Below are positions 38,754 to 59,605 of a stretch of 64,000 bases of DNA, piece after piece (the stretch's first letter is position 1; every line of letters begins with the position of its first letter). The notes under the pieces are model-generated. The model had not been told where the DNA came from, searched no databases, and saw only the letters and a program-made list of their open reading frames with translations. The position numbers and the translations under genes are program-made. The stretch is from Nocardioides daedukensis (lineage in GTDB: Bacteria > Actinomycetota > Actinomycetes > Propionibacteriales > Nocardioidaceae), in contig NZ_JACCAA010000001.1 of the NCBI RefSeq assembly GCF_013408415.1, positions 2,666,001 through 2,730,000 of the forward strand, read 5' to 3'.

Positions 38754-38811
38754 TTCCGGGATACGGATTGGCTTTTCTTGAGCCCAAAAACAGCCAATCC
38801 GTATCCCGGAA
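38754..38811. repeat. REP-like hairpin, left copy, beside the Vsr-like gene
   Basis: A perfect 20-base arm TTCCGGGATACGGATTGGCT pairs with 38792-38811 around an 18-base loop. Its reverse complement aligns better than its forward strand with the copy at 39968-40023, including the GGCTGTTTT flank. The two copies are therefore in inverted orientation around the gene 38891-39964. The rest of 38672-38890 is divergent promoter space. Confidence 0.88.
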
Positions 38812-38890: not shown

Positions 38891-39964
38891 ATGGAGCTCC
38901 CCGTTGATCCGCTGGCCGATCAGTGGTTGGACCTGGCCAACGCCGAGGTGCCGCCTGCGCCACGGATCGTCGTACCGCGCATCGTCGTGCCGGTCCCGGT
39001 GGATCCCGCAGGCATCGCCGGTCCCACCCGGGGCAGGTCGCGCGGGCCGCACTGGCGGCAGAGCTCACCGAACCGCTTCGTGCCGGCTCACGTCGACGGC
39101 ACGGTCCCGGCGCAGCGGATCGCCGAGGTCCTCCAGCAGGCACCGTCGGGGGTGGTGACCGGCTGGGCCAGCCTGCACCTGGCCGGTGCCCGCTGGTTCG
39201 AGGGGAGGCTCGCCGACGGTCGGCAGCGAGGGGTACCGGTGGCGCTGGGACGCGGGGTGGCGCGACGTTCCATCCCCGGTGGCGTGGTGACCCGGGCGAT
39301 CCTGGCCGACGACGAGGTCGTGCTTCGCCACGGGATCAGGTGCACGGGCGTACACCGGGCGATCTTTGACGAGGTTGTGCTCCTCGATGACGTACGCCGT
39401 GGGGTCGAGGCGATCGAGATGGCCTTCCACGCAGAGCTCACCTCGCGCGCCCGGCTCGGGGCCTGGCTGTCGACCTCTCCCCGTCGGGTCGGGAACCGGC
39501 TGGTCCGCCAGGCGCTCGAGCTGGCGCTGGAGGGTGCCGAGTCTCCGCAGGAGACCAAGATGCATCTCGTCTGGCGCCTCGACGCCGGGCTCCCCACGCC
39601 GATGCTGAACCAGAACATCTTCGACCTCCAGGGCAGGTTCCTCGCCCGGGTCGACCTGCTCGACCCGGTGGCCGGGGTGGTCGGCGAATATGACGGCGAG
39701 TCCCATCGGGCAACCCGGTCGCGGCGCAACGACGTACGCCGTGAGGGCGACCTGCGCCGAGCGGGACTGGAGTTCTTCTCGGTCGTGGCAGGTGAGCTCG
39801 CCCGTCCCGAGCACGTGGTGCAACGGATGCGGTGGGCCCGGGAGAAGGCACTCTCTAGCGCGCTGGCTTCCAAACGACACCGAGCGTGGGCGCTGACGCC
39901 GCGCAACGGCGTACGCCCGATGACCCTGGATGAGCGGATCGAGCGTCGTCGGCACCCCCGGTGA
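38891..39964 (+). CDS. AbiEi-like protein with C-terminal Vsr-like (DUF559) nuclease domain
   Basis: The 357-residue protein has an AbiEi-antitoxin-like middle region (residues 70-215, with GWASLHLAGARWFEG and RCTGVHRAIFDEVV). Its C-terminal domain (residues 220-330) resembles the Vsr/PD-(D/E)XK nuclease fold. Putative catalytic acids are the Glu of SPQETKMHL, the Asp of ARVDLLD and the Glu of GEYDGESH. The paralogue at 57263-58243 keeps the same acids (RGDLLL, HEYDGGHH). It is flanked by inverted hairpins ending 79 bases upstream and starting 4 bases downstream. Such genes are common as solitary copies in Nocardioides-type genomes and their role is unknown. The nuclease activity is inferred from motifs. 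Confidence 0.75.
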   Translation: MELPVDPLADQWLDLANAEVPPAPRIVVPRIVVPVPVDPAGIAGPTRGRSRGPHWRQSSPNRFVPAHVDGTVPAQRIAEVLQQAPSGVVTGWASLHLAGARWFEGRLADGRQRGVPVALGRGVARRSIPGGVVTRAILADDEVVLRHGIRCTGVHRAIFDEVVLLDDVRRGVEAIEMAFHAELTSRARLGAWLSTSPRRVGNRLVRQALELALEGAESPQETKMHLVWRLDAGLPTPMLNQNIFDLQGRFLARVDLLDPVAGVVGEYDGESHRATRSRRNDVRREGDLRRAGLEFFSVVAGELARPEHVVQRMRWAREKALSSALASKRHRAWALTPRNGVRPMTLDERIERRRHPR

Positions 39965-39967
39965 GAC

Positions 39968-40023
39968 TCCGGGATACGGATTGGCTGTTTTCGGACGACA
40001 GAACAGCCAACCTGTATCCCGGA
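39968..40023. repeat. REP-like hairpin, right copy, beside the Vsr-like gene
   Basis: The 22-base arm starting TCCGGGATACGGATTGGC pairs with 40002-40023 with two mismatches around a 12-base loop. It starts four bases after the stop of the Vsr-like gene and is inverted relative to the left copy at 38754-38811. Confidence 0.88.
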
Positions 40024-56238: not shown

Positions 56239-57114
56239 ATGAAGTGCGACTGCTGCAGTGACGAGGCATGGCGACCACTCTTCGCCGAGAACGGGATCCG
56301 TCTCGGCACGTGCGCGACGTGCGACCTGCATTCCATCGAGGACATCCCTCAGGGCCAGGCCCGGATGACCGAGATGGAGGAGGGGCACTACGCCGGCTCG
56401 CGCGAGATCCTCGACGCCACCCGACAGATCGAGGCGGAGAAGATCCTCGAGCAGCGCTTCCAGAAGTACGTCGACCTCGCGAGCGGCACCACGCCGACTG
56501 GGAAGTGGCTCGACATCGGCTGCGGTGGCGGGCTGCTGGTCGAGCTCGCCCAGCGCGCGGGCTATCAGGGTGAGGCGATCGAGCTGAACGCCGATCGTCG
56601 CAAGATCGCCGAGAAGGTCACCGGCGCCGTCGTCCACGGCGTACCCGTCGAGGACTGTGCCTTCGCCGACGACTCCTTCGACGTGATCAGCCTGATCAAT
56701 GTGTTCTCGCACCTGACCGCCCCCGGCTCGACGATCGCGGAACTGCTGCGGATCCTGCGCCCCGGCGGCGTGATCGTGATGGCCACCGGCGAGATCACCG
56801 CCGGCGCCCAGCGCAACCACATGTTCAACTGGAACCTCGGCGACCACTTGCACTTCCTCGGCGACCGGACGATGACCGCCTATGCCTCGCGGCTCGGCTT
56901 CGAGGTCGTGCACCACGAGCGGCACTGGCTGCCCGATGAGATGTTCAGCCGCGAGTGGCTCACGGTGAAGGGTCGATCGCCGGTGAAGAACGCGATCAAG
57001 ACCGCCGTGCGGGTCACTCCGGGTGGCCTGGCGCTGATGCGTGCGGTGATGCTGCGCAAGCAGGCGAGTTCGACTGCGCATGCGTCGATCTTTCTGTTGC
57101 AGGCTTCTGACTGA
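56239..57114 (+). CDS. Zinc-ribbon SAM-dependent methyltransferase (second)
   Basis: The 291-residue protein has a short cysteine-rich head (CDCCSDEA and CATCDLH in the first 30 residues), then a class I methyltransferase domain with [20 protein letters not shown] near 96 and [13 protein letters not shown] near 150. CGGAGG lies just before ATG 56239. Its stop codon (57112-57114) lies inside the first unit of the 30/31-bp repeat array. Confidence 0.85.
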
Positions 57115-57284
57115 TGGGTTGGGGGTGCGGCTGACGCCTAACTGATGGCTTGGCGGGTGCGCTGGGCCTAACTGATGGGTTAGGGGTGCGCCCGGCGCCT
57201 AACTGATGGCTTGGGCGAACGACCGTCTGTAACTGATGGGTTGGGCGCCTGAAGGGGCCGATCTAGGCGACGAACCCATCAGTT
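57110..57284. repeat. 30/31-bp repeat array, left of the second Vsr-like gene
   Basis: The core ACTGATGGNTT occurs at 57110, 57141, 57171, 57202 and 57232, with spacings of 31, 30, 31 and 30 bases. A sixth, inverted core lies at 57273-57284 inside the end of the neighbouring gene. The sequence between cores is similar but more variable. The array fills the convergent gap. Confidence 0.87.
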
Positions 57285-58243
57285 TGTACGTCCGAAGAGC
57301 GCCGACCCGGCCCCAGGGCCCGCATTCGGAACTCTTGGGTTCCAGCGGGCGTGAACAACGAATGTCGGATGAGCTCATGCCACACGCGGATCCGTCCTGG
57401 TTCGTGCGTGCGACCGATGGTCAGGTCGGCGTCCCGGATGATCTCGTTCGGGGTCGCCATCACCTCATAGGCGGTGTAACCCCGCCGCTCCCACTCCGCA
57501 GAATTGACCAGCCTCCGAGCTCGCCGAAGGTCCTTGCGTTGTTGAGGCACCTCCAAGTGATGGCCGCCGTCGTACTCATGGATGGTGTTCGTCCCCGTGA
57601 GCAGGAGGTCGCCTCGGGCGATGAAGGTCCCTTCGTCATCCCAGATCTCGTACTGGGGCTCGGTCCTGATCCCGCTGGACTCATGGAGCACCCGGAGCAG
57701 CACCTCCCAGATCGACTCGGCCCTGCCATCAACCCAGCCCAAGGCCCGGCGCAGAGTCGGGGCACCGCGCCGGCGCATCCGCGAGATCTGGTCCAGGTCC
57801 GTGACAGTGATGTCCCCGGCGTGGACTGCGCACTCGATCACGGTCACTGCGTCGAGCAGATTGAGCACTCGACAGCACGCCAGGATCGTCTCGGACACCG
57901 TGGCGACGCGGAGGCCGAGGAGTTCCTCGGCGCCGGCATCCGTGCGCGGGCGGCTCACCTTCAGGCCCGGTCTGACCGCGTTGTTGCCGCATTCCTGCGA
58001 AGTGACGAAGACGGGTACGTCGTCCGGTAGTGGCGGGAGCCACCAGCCTCGGATCTCGGCTGAGGTCAGTCCGGTGAGCATGGCATCGGGACGCAGTACG
58101 CCGAGCCATCCGCGTAGCTCGGTGATCCGCTCGGCCTCGGGGTCGAGGTCTTCGAGGCGATGGACACCCCGGGTCACGGGCAACCATGCCTGCCCGGGAC
58201 TGCGGCCAAAATGAAGTCCAGTCGTTTCCATCGTCCAGAGCAT
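57263..58243 (-). CDS. AbiEi-like protein with C-terminal Vsr-like (DUF559) nuclease domain (second)
   Basis: The 326-residue paralogue of the gene at 38891-39964 has an AbiEi-like region (LTGLTSAEIRGWWLPPLP near residue 56, GLRVATVSETILACC near 110) and a C-terminal Vsr-like domain. Likely catalytic acids are the Glu of ESIWEVLLRVLHESS, the Asp of IARGDLLLTG and the Glu of HEYDGGHH. Its final codons (TDGFVA) are formed by a copy of the flanking repeat. Starts at ATG 58243 or 58231 are both plausible; upstream frame runs through repeat sequence. Repeat arrays lie on both sides. Function is unknown. Confidence 0.75.
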   Translation of the reverse strand: MLWTMETTGLHFGRSPGQAWLPVTRGVHRLEDLDPEAERITELRGWLGVLRPDAMLTGLTSAEIRGWWLPPLPDDVPVFVTSQECGNNAVRPGLKVSRPRTDAGAEELLGLRVATVSETILACCRVLNLLDAVTVIECAVHAGDITVTDLDQISRMRRRGAPTLRRALGWVDGRAESIWEVLLRVLHESSGIRTEPQYEIWDDEGTFIARGDLLLTGTNTIHEYDGGHHLEVPQQRKDLRRARRLVNSAEWERRGYTAYEVMATPNEIIRDADLTIGRTHEPGRIRVWHELIRHSLFTPAGTQEFRMRALGPGRRSSDVQTDGFVA

Positions 58244-58343
58244 GCGGGCACTCGCGCGTGTTCGCGGGCCGCGCGGGCGCAGCTGTGGAGGAGCGAGTGC
58301 GGGTGGCGCCCTGTGGATGACAACTGGCCCGGGCACATCTCCC

Positions 58344-58560
58344 AACTGATGGGTTGGGCGTGCTCGCTTACCGAAACTGATGGGTTCGGGGAGCGGCCTT
58401 GAGCAACTGATGCTTTGGGAGCCGAATCGGCTGGTTTTGGAGGCCCAACCCATCAGTTGGGCGAGCCGCCAGGCCCAACCCATCAGTTAGGCGAGATGCC
58501 GACCCCAACCCATCAGTTAGGCGAGCCGCCGGCCCCAACCCATCAGTTAGGCGAGCCGCC
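58344..58560. repeat. 30/31-bp repeat array, right of the second Vsr-like gene
   Basis: Three forward cores (AACTGATG at 58344, 58375 and 58405) are followed by four inverted cores (AACCCATCAGTT at 58447, 58477, 58507 and 58537) exactly 30 bases apart. The four inverted units are nearly identical over their full 30 bases (CCCAACCCATCAGTTAGGCG plus GAGCCGCC). The last unit contains the stop codon of the adjacent glycosyltransferase gene. Confidence 0.9.
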
Positions 58561-59605
58561 GCTCGAGCTCCTCGTGCAGGTTGACCGCCCAGATCTCAGG
58601 GGTCAACCGCGAGCCGAGCGCTTGCGAGCCGCGCGACATCGACTCGAGCCGGGCGGGGGAGGCCGAGGACATCCGCACCATCGCGGTGACCAGCTCCGAG
58701 CGGGAACCCGCCTCGACGGTCCAGCCGTTGAAGCCGTCCTGGAGGAGGTGGGGGACAGCGCCGACGCCGTCGGAGCAGATCACCGGGAGGCCGGCGACGG
58801 CTGCTTCGTGCACGACCACGCCGTACCACTCGATGTGCGAGGGGAGGATCAGGCAGGAGACCTCCTGCATCCGTTCGGCGAGCGCCTCGGGCTGCATGAA
58901 TCCCTCGAGTCGCACACCCTCGATGCCCGCGAAGTCCGCGGCCAGGGGACCGCCGCCGACGATGTCCAGGTCCCACGGCGAGGAGACCGCCGAGCGATAC
59001 TCCGCATAGGCCTCGGCCAGCAGCGTCGGGGCCTTGTGCCAGATCAGTCGCCCGGTGAACAGGAACCGCGCACGCGAGGCCAGCTCCGAGCCCGAGCGAG
59101 GACCCCGGGAGAAGAGCGAGACATCGGCCGAGTTCGCCCCCCGAATCACCTGGCGACCACGGAACCCGATCCGTCGCGCGAACTCCTCCGATCGCTCACC
59201 GGGCACCCAGACCGCGTCGAAGAGCGGGGTGACATAGGCATGACGCGCGACCAGGCCGGCGTACTGCTTCGCGGTCCCGTGCCAGAAGTTCGAGGAGAAC
59301 ATCACCCGCAGCGCCCGGCCACGGAAGTGCTTCATCACCGCGCGATAGCCGGCGCCGTCCCACGACCACATGATCACCACGTCCGGGTTGAACGCCTCGA
59401 TCTGCGGCACTAGTTCGGCGGCGGACGGCATCTCGGGCGACCAGACGATCCGGGTCACCTCGCGGGAGAACTTCGTCTTGTCGAAGTCCGCGAACGGCAT
59501 GGTCGGGGGGTGCACGAGCAGTACGTCGTCCCCCAGCGCGGCGAGCTCGCGGAAGCAGACATCCTGATAGGCCGTGAGTCCGGTCATGAGTACGGCGATG
59601 CGCAC
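58547..59605 (-). CDS. Glycosyltransferase family 4
   Basis: This 352-residue GT-B enzyme has the C-terminal donor domain segments ARFLFTGRLIWHKAPTLLAE near residue 183 and EWYGVVVHEAAVAGLPVICS near 265, where the EX7E glutamates lie. The N-terminal half is typical of retaining GT4 enzymes. The start is GTG 59605. Its TAA stop lies in the last unit of the 30-bp repeat array. The sugar it transfers is unknown. Confidence 0.87.
   Translation of the reverse strand: MRIAVLMTGLTAYQDVCFRELAALGDDVLLVHPPTMPFADFDKTKFSREVTRIVWSPEMPSAAELVPQIEAFNPDVVIMWSWDGAGYRAVMKHFRGRALRVMFSSNFWHGTAKQYAGLVARHAYVTPLFDAVWVPGERSEEFARRIGFRGRQVIRGANSADVSLFSRGPRSGSELASRARFLFTGRLIWHKAPTLLAEAYAEYRSAVSSPWDLDIVGGGPLAADFAGIEGVRLEGFMQPEALAERMQEVSCLILPSHIEWYGVVVHEAAVAGLPVICSDGVGAVPHLLQDGFNGWTVEAGSRSELVTAMVRMSSASPARLESMSRGSQALGSRLTPEIWAVNLHEELERRLA

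Follow-up and report, generated by a model that had tools for sequence, protein, structure and literature searches.

In the 64,000-nucleotide stretch of the Nocardioides daedukensis genome analyzed here (the window; positions 2,666,001 to 2,730,000 of contig NZ_JACCAA010000001.1), the Vsr-like gene P0002 is bracketed on both sides by 13 cores of (A)ACTGATGGGTT. Copies of this core are dispersed through the genome, and among relatives the sequence of the repeats flanking such genes changes with that of the protein. The gene and its repeats are probably cognate partners, similar in operation to a REPIN/RAYT system without being one (doublets of repetitive extragenic palindromic [REP] sequences forming hairpins, with a REP-associated tyrosine transposase [RAYT]), in which an unrelated nuclease would bind its own inverted pair and aid its spread.

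P0002 and its repeat in the Nocardioides daedukensis genome

The exact 12-mer core occurs 64 times (36 forward, 28 reverse) in the 3.81-Mb genome, and the reversed-pattern control 0 times. By our own grouping, these exact copies form 15 clusters, one beside P0002 and 14 without the gene. The forward-to-inverted step was 42 bp at all 20 junctions found, and same-strand steps measured 30 bp (60), 31 bp (14) or other lengths (8). An earlier note on this DNA had assigned each of two Vsr-like paralogues a private repeat family. The P0002 repeat is indeed unrelated in sequence to the hairpin at the first paralogue, P0003, and each family is private in that sense, but not in place, given 64 copies in 15 clusters; such genome-wide dispersal suggests a relationship of the REPIN/RAYT kind and not one confined to the locus. 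A second close copy of P0002 is absent from its own genome: four other relatives are distant, none lies at another cluster, and further matches of the protein search there are translated repeats. Copying of the gene along with its ends, a feature of insertion sequences, was not seen (one P0002 versus 14 gene-less clusters). Among the genus genomes searched (see below), the own-genome inverted pair (both 11-mers exact) was confined to N. daedukensis. Of the 14 clusters without the gene, eight are found no more than 240 kb from P0002 (P = 9e-5; radius picked after looking) and two no more than 100 kb (P = 0.17), with a median distance matched by 8 of 100,000 random draws; clustering near the gene is not claimed as general.

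Within the window (Table 1), the number and positions of the units around P0002 were all as the earlier note had placed them, and its 30/31-bp unit size agrees with the measured same-strand spacing of 30 to 31 bp; both forward-to-inverted junctions measured 42 bp. Compared with AACTGATGGGTT, nine of the 13 cores are exact, three carry one mismatch and one carries two. Scanning the window at up to two mismatches returned 14 matches, against a chance expectation of 1.25 and a maximum of 5 in 100 shuffles; the fourteenth, at 57330, is out of register. The two neighbors of P0002 are a methyltransferase gene (end 57114), whose stop codon is overlapped by the first left core, and a glycosyltransferase gene (58547-59605, minus strand), whose stop codon is overlapped by the last right core. 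The inverted core at 57273 codes for part of the tail of P0002. Final codons that are a half-repeat were seen in different clades (window positions 57263-57284; gene ends of loci L118 and L071), and the element thus supplies part of the protein C-terminus.

TABLE 1 Coordinates in the window of the two Vsr-like paralogues and their repeats
Feature	Positions	Strand	Remarks
P0002	57263..58243	-	326 amino acids; predicted AbiEi-like N-terminal region ~1-171 and predicted Vsr/EDxHD-type nuclease domain ~175-279
Left array of P0002, five forward cores (57109, 57140, 57170, 57201, 57231)	57109..57242	+	Period 30-31 bp
Inverted core inside the 3' end of P0002	57273..57284	-	42 bp from forward core 57231
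Right array of P0002, three forward cores (58344, 58375, 58405)	58344..58416	+	
Right array of P0002, four inverted cores (58447, 58477, 58507, 58537)	58447..58548	-	
P0003 (first paralogue)	38891..39964	+	357 amino acids; homologous, E 1.4e-5 (search with 406-amino-acid reading frame)
Left inverted pair of P0003's own family (GGGATACGGATTGGCT)	38758..38807	.	
Right inverted pair of P0003's own family	39969..40022	.	Second arm imperfect

Repeat sequence and protein kinship among relatives

Relatives were sought in 98 genomes of the genus (one genome per species). A homologue (E ≤ 1e-5) was found in 87 of the 98 genomes, and 62 close matches (E < 1e-38) are separated by a gap from the rest (E > 1e-17). 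Together with a split copy that gave weaker E-values (L111), these make up 63 close loci. To score flanking repeats, a comparison of each gene's own two flanks with mismatched pairings replaced a count of frequent 12-mers in flanks, which lacked power where copies were few. At 48 of the 63 genus loci, an exact word of at least 12 bases was common to both flanks of the gene, compared with 513 of 3,906 mismatched pairings. A second set of named and metagenome-assembled genome (MAG) records, overlapping the first and consisting mostly of Nocardioides but also of Geodermatophilaceae, Microlunatus and Aeromicrobium, gave 28 of 46 versus 176 of 2,070 (46 of 53 loci used; L200-L206, partial or weak, were left out). 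The contig search behind this set used eight closer proteins, an alignment of 25 having proved too divergent. The same arrangement recurs in the clade of P0003, with matches at E ≤ 1e-20 in 85 of the 98 genomes and sharing at 25 of the 30 loci fetched (mismatched pairings, 86 of 870). Among 138 ordinary control genes, drawn from the window and from syntenic regions of relatives, eight shared at least 12 bases between flanks, and at 14 bases or more the contrast sharpened to 42 of 63, 25 of 46 and 24 of 30 (P0003 clade) versus 1 of 138. A locus outside the clade (L112) was left out of flank counts and kept in the tree, gene ends of L070, L082, L096 and L111 were set by hand, and L050, L052, L054, L055, L063 and L066 are second retrievals of the same genes, with longer flanks. 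Four loci hold broken or partial gene copies (L082, L085, L096 and L111), and in the last three the flanks still share at least 12 bases; loss of the enzyme may precede that of the repeats.

The repeats also follow the protein. Types A, B and C were assigned by us from the flank analyses, leaving 27 of the 62 rows of the protein tree unlabeled (the short L082 and L096 were omitted). On this tree, types B (10 rows) and C (22 rows) need one change each, a value as low in none of 500 shuffles, with support of 81/38 for the branch leading to C; type A (3 rows) needs two changes. Independently of such labels, 67 of 94 distinct loci shared at least 12 bases between their own flanks, and 66 of these were compared. 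The 245 of 2,145 pairs of loci sharing a repeat 10-mer had a mean protein identity of 0.586 (58.6%), compared with 0.391 (39.1%) for the others, a relationship reached in 0 of 2,000 permutations (area under the curve 0.955). Two genomes carry two paralogues each (G012 and G022): like paralogues share 5 and 23 repeat ten-mers, and all four unlike pairs share 0, so that repeats in these genomes go with the paralogue and not with the genome. The earlier note had argued for co-evolving enzyme-repeat pairs and had proposed matching protein clade to repeat sequence in relatives as the check. Both the tracking of protein by repeat, with B and C each on one branch, and the recurrence of the arrangement in the P0003 clade lend support to that view.

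These results bear on whether generic intergenic repeats, moved by an unrelated transposase, came to lie beside these genes by chance, which we regard as extremely unlikely. Such a history would account for repeats that are mostly intergenic, are dispersed as REPs are and in some cases occur in genomes without a close gene. It would not account for the sharing of 14 bases or more by both flanks at a rate far from that of ordinary genes, nor for a repeat sequence that follows the protein; and the Y1 transposase domain (Y1_Tnp, PF01797) was found in 0 of the 98 genus genomes, where other transposase families were not searched for (the control was detected in 5 of 14). Neither P0002 nor P0003 matches Y1_Tnp.

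Predicted fold of the protein and geometry of the inverted pairs

An AlphaFold model of P0002 built on 44 sequences reached a predicted local distance difference test (pLDDT) score of 91.4. In structural alignment, residues ~175-279 of the model resemble I-Bth0305I (3r3p; Z 10.9, root mean square deviation [rmsd] 2.5 over 92 residues), NGO0050 (3hrl; Z 9.9) and Vsr (1cw0; Z 8.8), pointing to a Vsr/EDxHD-type nuclease domain. Residues 1-171 align more loosely with AbiEi (6y8q; Z 8.6, rmsd 5.3, 160 residues), and nucleotidyltransferase toxins match the same modeled region at Z 5-6. The fold assignment rests on this second-look alignment and not on Foldseek, which returned no PDB match at E ≤ 0.001 and ranked the AbiEi relative Rv2827c first (E 0.011). 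Residues E180, D212, E223, D225, H229, D238 and R241 are invariant in the 44 aligned sequences, with E223 replaced by D in one row (L080) of a separate alignment set; from the acidic and histidine residues among these we infer a residue-by-residue assignment of the EDxHD active site. Ratios of nonsynonymous to synonymous substitution rates (dN/dS) of 0.08 to 0.25 in ten pairs of relatives show purifying selection. The DUF559 profile (PF04480) matched 19 of the 44 family members at E ≤ 0.1 (best, 9.5e-6), P0002 not among them.

I-Bth0305I, in the account of PMC3943268 from which the EDxHD motif name is taken, dimerizes on a target of nearly 60 bp, and the inverted repeats bound by AbiEi and Rv2827c are described as paired, 23 bp long and separated by gaps of 3 or 13 bp, neither protein binding those of the other (PMC7319586). 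Each half of P0002, as modeled, is thus similar to proteins whose DNA targets are paired or long. Unlike I-Bth0305I, P0002 is free-standing and accompanied by a dispersed short element, with no intron, intein or interrupted gene around it. Unlike in AbiE type IV systems, whose antitoxins the N-terminal region appears to resemble, this region is joined to a predicted nuclease domain and no toxin gene (AbiEii, DUF1814) adjoins it.

The inverted pairs are rigid in length. The P0002 clade yielded 87 distinct strong inverted pairs, of which 58 have an outer NNTGG...CCANN and 29 do not. Within a search range of 40 to 90 bp, and with the anchor picked after inspection, the 58 anchored pairs measured 53 bp (39), 52 bp (5), 73-74 bp (4) and 83-84 bp (4), the remaining six being 46, 47, 55 or 76 bp; in the P0003 clade the anchor occurs in 1 of 44. 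Lengths of 52.5, 73.5 and 84 bp are whole turns of DNA at 10.5 bp per turn, and 53 bp is about five helical turns. Junctions of type B measured 42 bp in all 44 found, within a search range of only 38-46 bp (26-59 bp for type A), and one listed B pair is shorter by one base. The inner arms do not pair beyond chance: in 20 own-genome pairs they matched at 0.393 versus 0.475 when shuffled, less than by chance, and in 40 B pairs at 0.494 versus 0.466, a value reached by 92 of 1,000 shuffles. A long hairpin of single-stranded DNA or RNA as the basis of conservation is accordingly rejected for type A and unsupported for B, and the route through a single-stranded DNA hairpin taken by RAYTs is likewise unsupported. 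Rigid lengths with inner arms that pair no more than by chance favor instead a protein holding two inverted sites on duplex DNA at a fixed helical phase. At four loci in an Aeromicrobium MAG, two Nocardioidaceae MAGs and actinobacterium LLX17 (L188, L194, L197 and L198), the core is GAGTGGCGCA and pairs measure 73-84 bp, about two or three helical turns longer than 53 bp.

Two other functions could be drawn from this architecture. P0002 might be an AbiEi-like, autoregulated DNA-binding protein whose flanking repeats are operators and whose dispersed copies are a regulon or chromosome-organizing sites, the nuclease domain doing something else. AbiEi and Rv2827c, as reported in PMC7319586, repress their own promoters through paired inverted repeats, the N-terminal region appears to resemble AbiEi, spacing is fixed, and the repeat of a third paralogue (below) was found only at its own flanks. 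We nevertheless consider a regulator unlikely, for copies also lie downstream of the gene, and at 12 of the 14 gene-less clusters the gene on the left has its 3' end facing the cluster (8 convergent, 4 co-directional), with one cluster between divergent genes. These counts come from rough gene calling, in which genes at several loci were missed; with the same caveat, convergent placement applies to 8 of 14 clusters versus, in the window, 13 of 50 pairs of neighboring genes. Nor would a regulator explain a copy number of 2 to 61 inverted pairs in those B-clade genomes that have any, or nuclease residues that are invariant. Alternatively, the repeats could be recognition or decoy sites by which the nuclease tells own from foreign DNA. 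The predicted nuclease fold beside an AbiEi-like region and PADLOC matches to AbiEi for P0003 (3.2e-6) and the third paralogue (4e-4) speak for such a role in defense, which is very unlikely: P0002 itself has no PADLOC match, its neighbors are a methyltransferase and a glycosyltransferase gene, a C-clade gene sits beside a Pup-ligase gene, and the repeat load differs strongly among relatives.

Spread of the repeats and comparison with known systems

Returning to a nuclease that may aid the spread of its own repeats, dispersal in other genomes goes with possession of the gene. The exact C palindrome is present in 11 of the 98 genomes at 2 to 31 copies, in 10 of 27 with a C-clade gene versus 1 of 71 others. 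The B inverted pair is present in 14 of 98 at 1 to 61 copies, in 9 of 10 B-clade genomes versus 5 of 88 others, these being G040 and four without a close gene; in G040, at least one of two B copies lies within 400 bp of its own close gene. Fisher tests on this co-occurrence ignore shared ancestry. Microlunatus flavus carries 57 copies of its own core at up to one mismatch (31 exact; control 0), including, by our count of the listing, 24 doublets, each with 39-bp spacing. In G014, 12 of 26 copies seen are on the contig of the gene, two of them being the gene's own flanks. Repeats at gene flanks differ from dispersed ones by 1.70 mismatches within a genome and 3.92 between genomes (14 genomes; 0 of 5,000 permutations), as predicted by an active or recently active repeat population. 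At one intergenic site for which 13 of 15 syntenic regions were aligned, eight regions are short and two more (G050 and G083) have a little extra length but no repeats, whereas an inverted pair is present in G018 and G036 and a pair of a different core variant in G009; at three other aligned sites, one half shows decay. Eleven exact C palindromes lie within 207 kb in G056 (contig 1, 4501521-4708342), a genome without a close gene, and this orphan cluster perhaps marks the site of a lost gene.

We propose that the P0002 protein would bind duplex DNA at a pair of inverted cores of its own family separated by about five helical turns, and that it would probably do so as a dimer, using the AbiEi-like N-terminal region. 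The Vsr/I-Bth0305I-type nuclease domain would then nick or cut at the element, and repair or replication of the cut DNA would copy the inverted pair into other intergenic sites, new copies in some genomes falling mostly in the same part of the chromosome as the gene. The gene would stay single-copy between two founder copies, which may also autoregulate it. The sequences themselves show the pairing of gene and repeat, their co-variation, the dispersal, the rigid geometry, the predicted fold with its conserved residues and the purifying selection; binding, dimerization, cutting and enzyme-driven copying are steps that we infer.

Several observations weigh against this proposal. Binding, cleavage or new insertion was not observed in this sequence-based analysis. 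No clean target-site duplication was evident at the single presence/absence site read base by base, nor was an insertion footprint found at the sites read. In the concerted-change test, the own genome came first in only 5 of 14 cases, since a single core variant is common to several genomes, and the inner arms of own-genome pairs match less well than shuffled ones. Clustering near the gene was absent for B in G089. The earlier note had named two patterns that would speak against paired evolution: paralogues in relatives without adjacent repeats, or the same repeat family with unrelated genes and never with the Vsr-like gene. Neither was seen in that form, yet a shared word of at least 12 bases is lacking at 15 of the 63 loci of the genus and at 18 of 46 in the second set, some repeats occur in genomes that have no close gene (C in G056; B in G005, G045, G074 and G096), and the repeat of the third paralogue, L026, was found at up to one mismatch nowhere in its own genome besides its flanks, possibly as a pair that never spread or whose dispersed copies were lost. 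Locus counts are not independent, as loci are related by descent. As for the wider family, P0002 matches neither the DUF559 nor the MTES_1575 profile, and a class-wide sample of DUF559 genes gave a shared 14-mer at only 4 of 21 testable loci (9 of 30 fetched had no usable gene call).

Likeness to REPIN/RAYT systems (TnpA_REP), as these are portrayed in PMC3116915, PMC8049555 and PMC3733652, extends to an enzyme gene present once and adjoined by its own repeats, inverted doublets that are dispersed, a repeat type that goes with enzyme type and repeats that also occur in genomes without the enzyme gene. In contrast, the predicted enzyme here has a Vsr/EDxHD-type fold with an AbiEi-like region, not Y1/HUH, and doublet spacing is ~42 bp versus 71 and 110 bp for two SBW25 REPIN types in the same sources. 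Compensatory changes have been reported for REPINs, whereas own-genome pairs here show no extended hairpin pairing. According to PMC3733652, a GTAG tag at one repeat end is a feature of RAYT-linked repeats, and some families of REP-like palindromes are described without a dedicated transposase; CGTC REPs are likewise dispersed palindromes described there without one, with a different tag and in different taxa. Because the enzyme is unrelated and Y1_Tnp was found in none of the 98 genomes, P0002 does not count as a RAYT, even if its mode of action may be similar.

The logic alone is that of REPIN/RAYT. To our knowledge, no repeat-mobilizing kind uses this enzyme fold, and we therefore rate the system as categorically new; our literature searches, which had little coverage of subscription journals or bioRxiv, found no paper linking these nucleases to palindromic repeats. 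A broader proposition, for and against which we see the case as evenly balanced, is that Vsr/EDxHD-type nucleases with AbiEi-like regions are a second class of domesticated enzymes that propagate repeats, with an independent origin, occurring in many parallel Nocardioides lineages and reaching other actinobacterial families. Each would maintain its own inverted pairs (53 bp in most measured P0002-clade pairs) through cleavage and repair of duplex DNA, and in some genomes the spread would be local, near the gene. If true, a non-homologous enzyme would follow REPIN/RAYT logic and enzyme-and-repeat partnerships would have arisen more than once; there would be a large natural set of protein/DNA-site pairs (one scaffold, a changing site, fixed geometry) from which to learn rules of DNA recognition, and a testable function for a broad class of "hypothetical DUF559/AbiEi" genes.

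Among the C-clade genes mentioned above, a Pup-ligase (pafA-type) gene lies directly downstream in L101, the only locus at which its domain was confirmed, and L107 and L118 have the same downstream gene start; this suggests vertical inheritance at one locus. Elsewhere in the N. daedukensis genome, the inverted-pair family of P0003 also occurs at four further places, and the 406-amino-acid reading frame used in the P0003 search had no match in plasmids. The third Vsr-like paralogue, L026 (genome positions 2731853-2733015; position 2732013), lies to the right of the window with its own repeat, GCAATGGTTCAT..., on both sides. Two further distant paralogues, L027 and L035, have flanks that share no word of at least 12 bases, and L035 (genome position 3721750) is adjoined by a gene that we take to resemble an IS30-type transposase.

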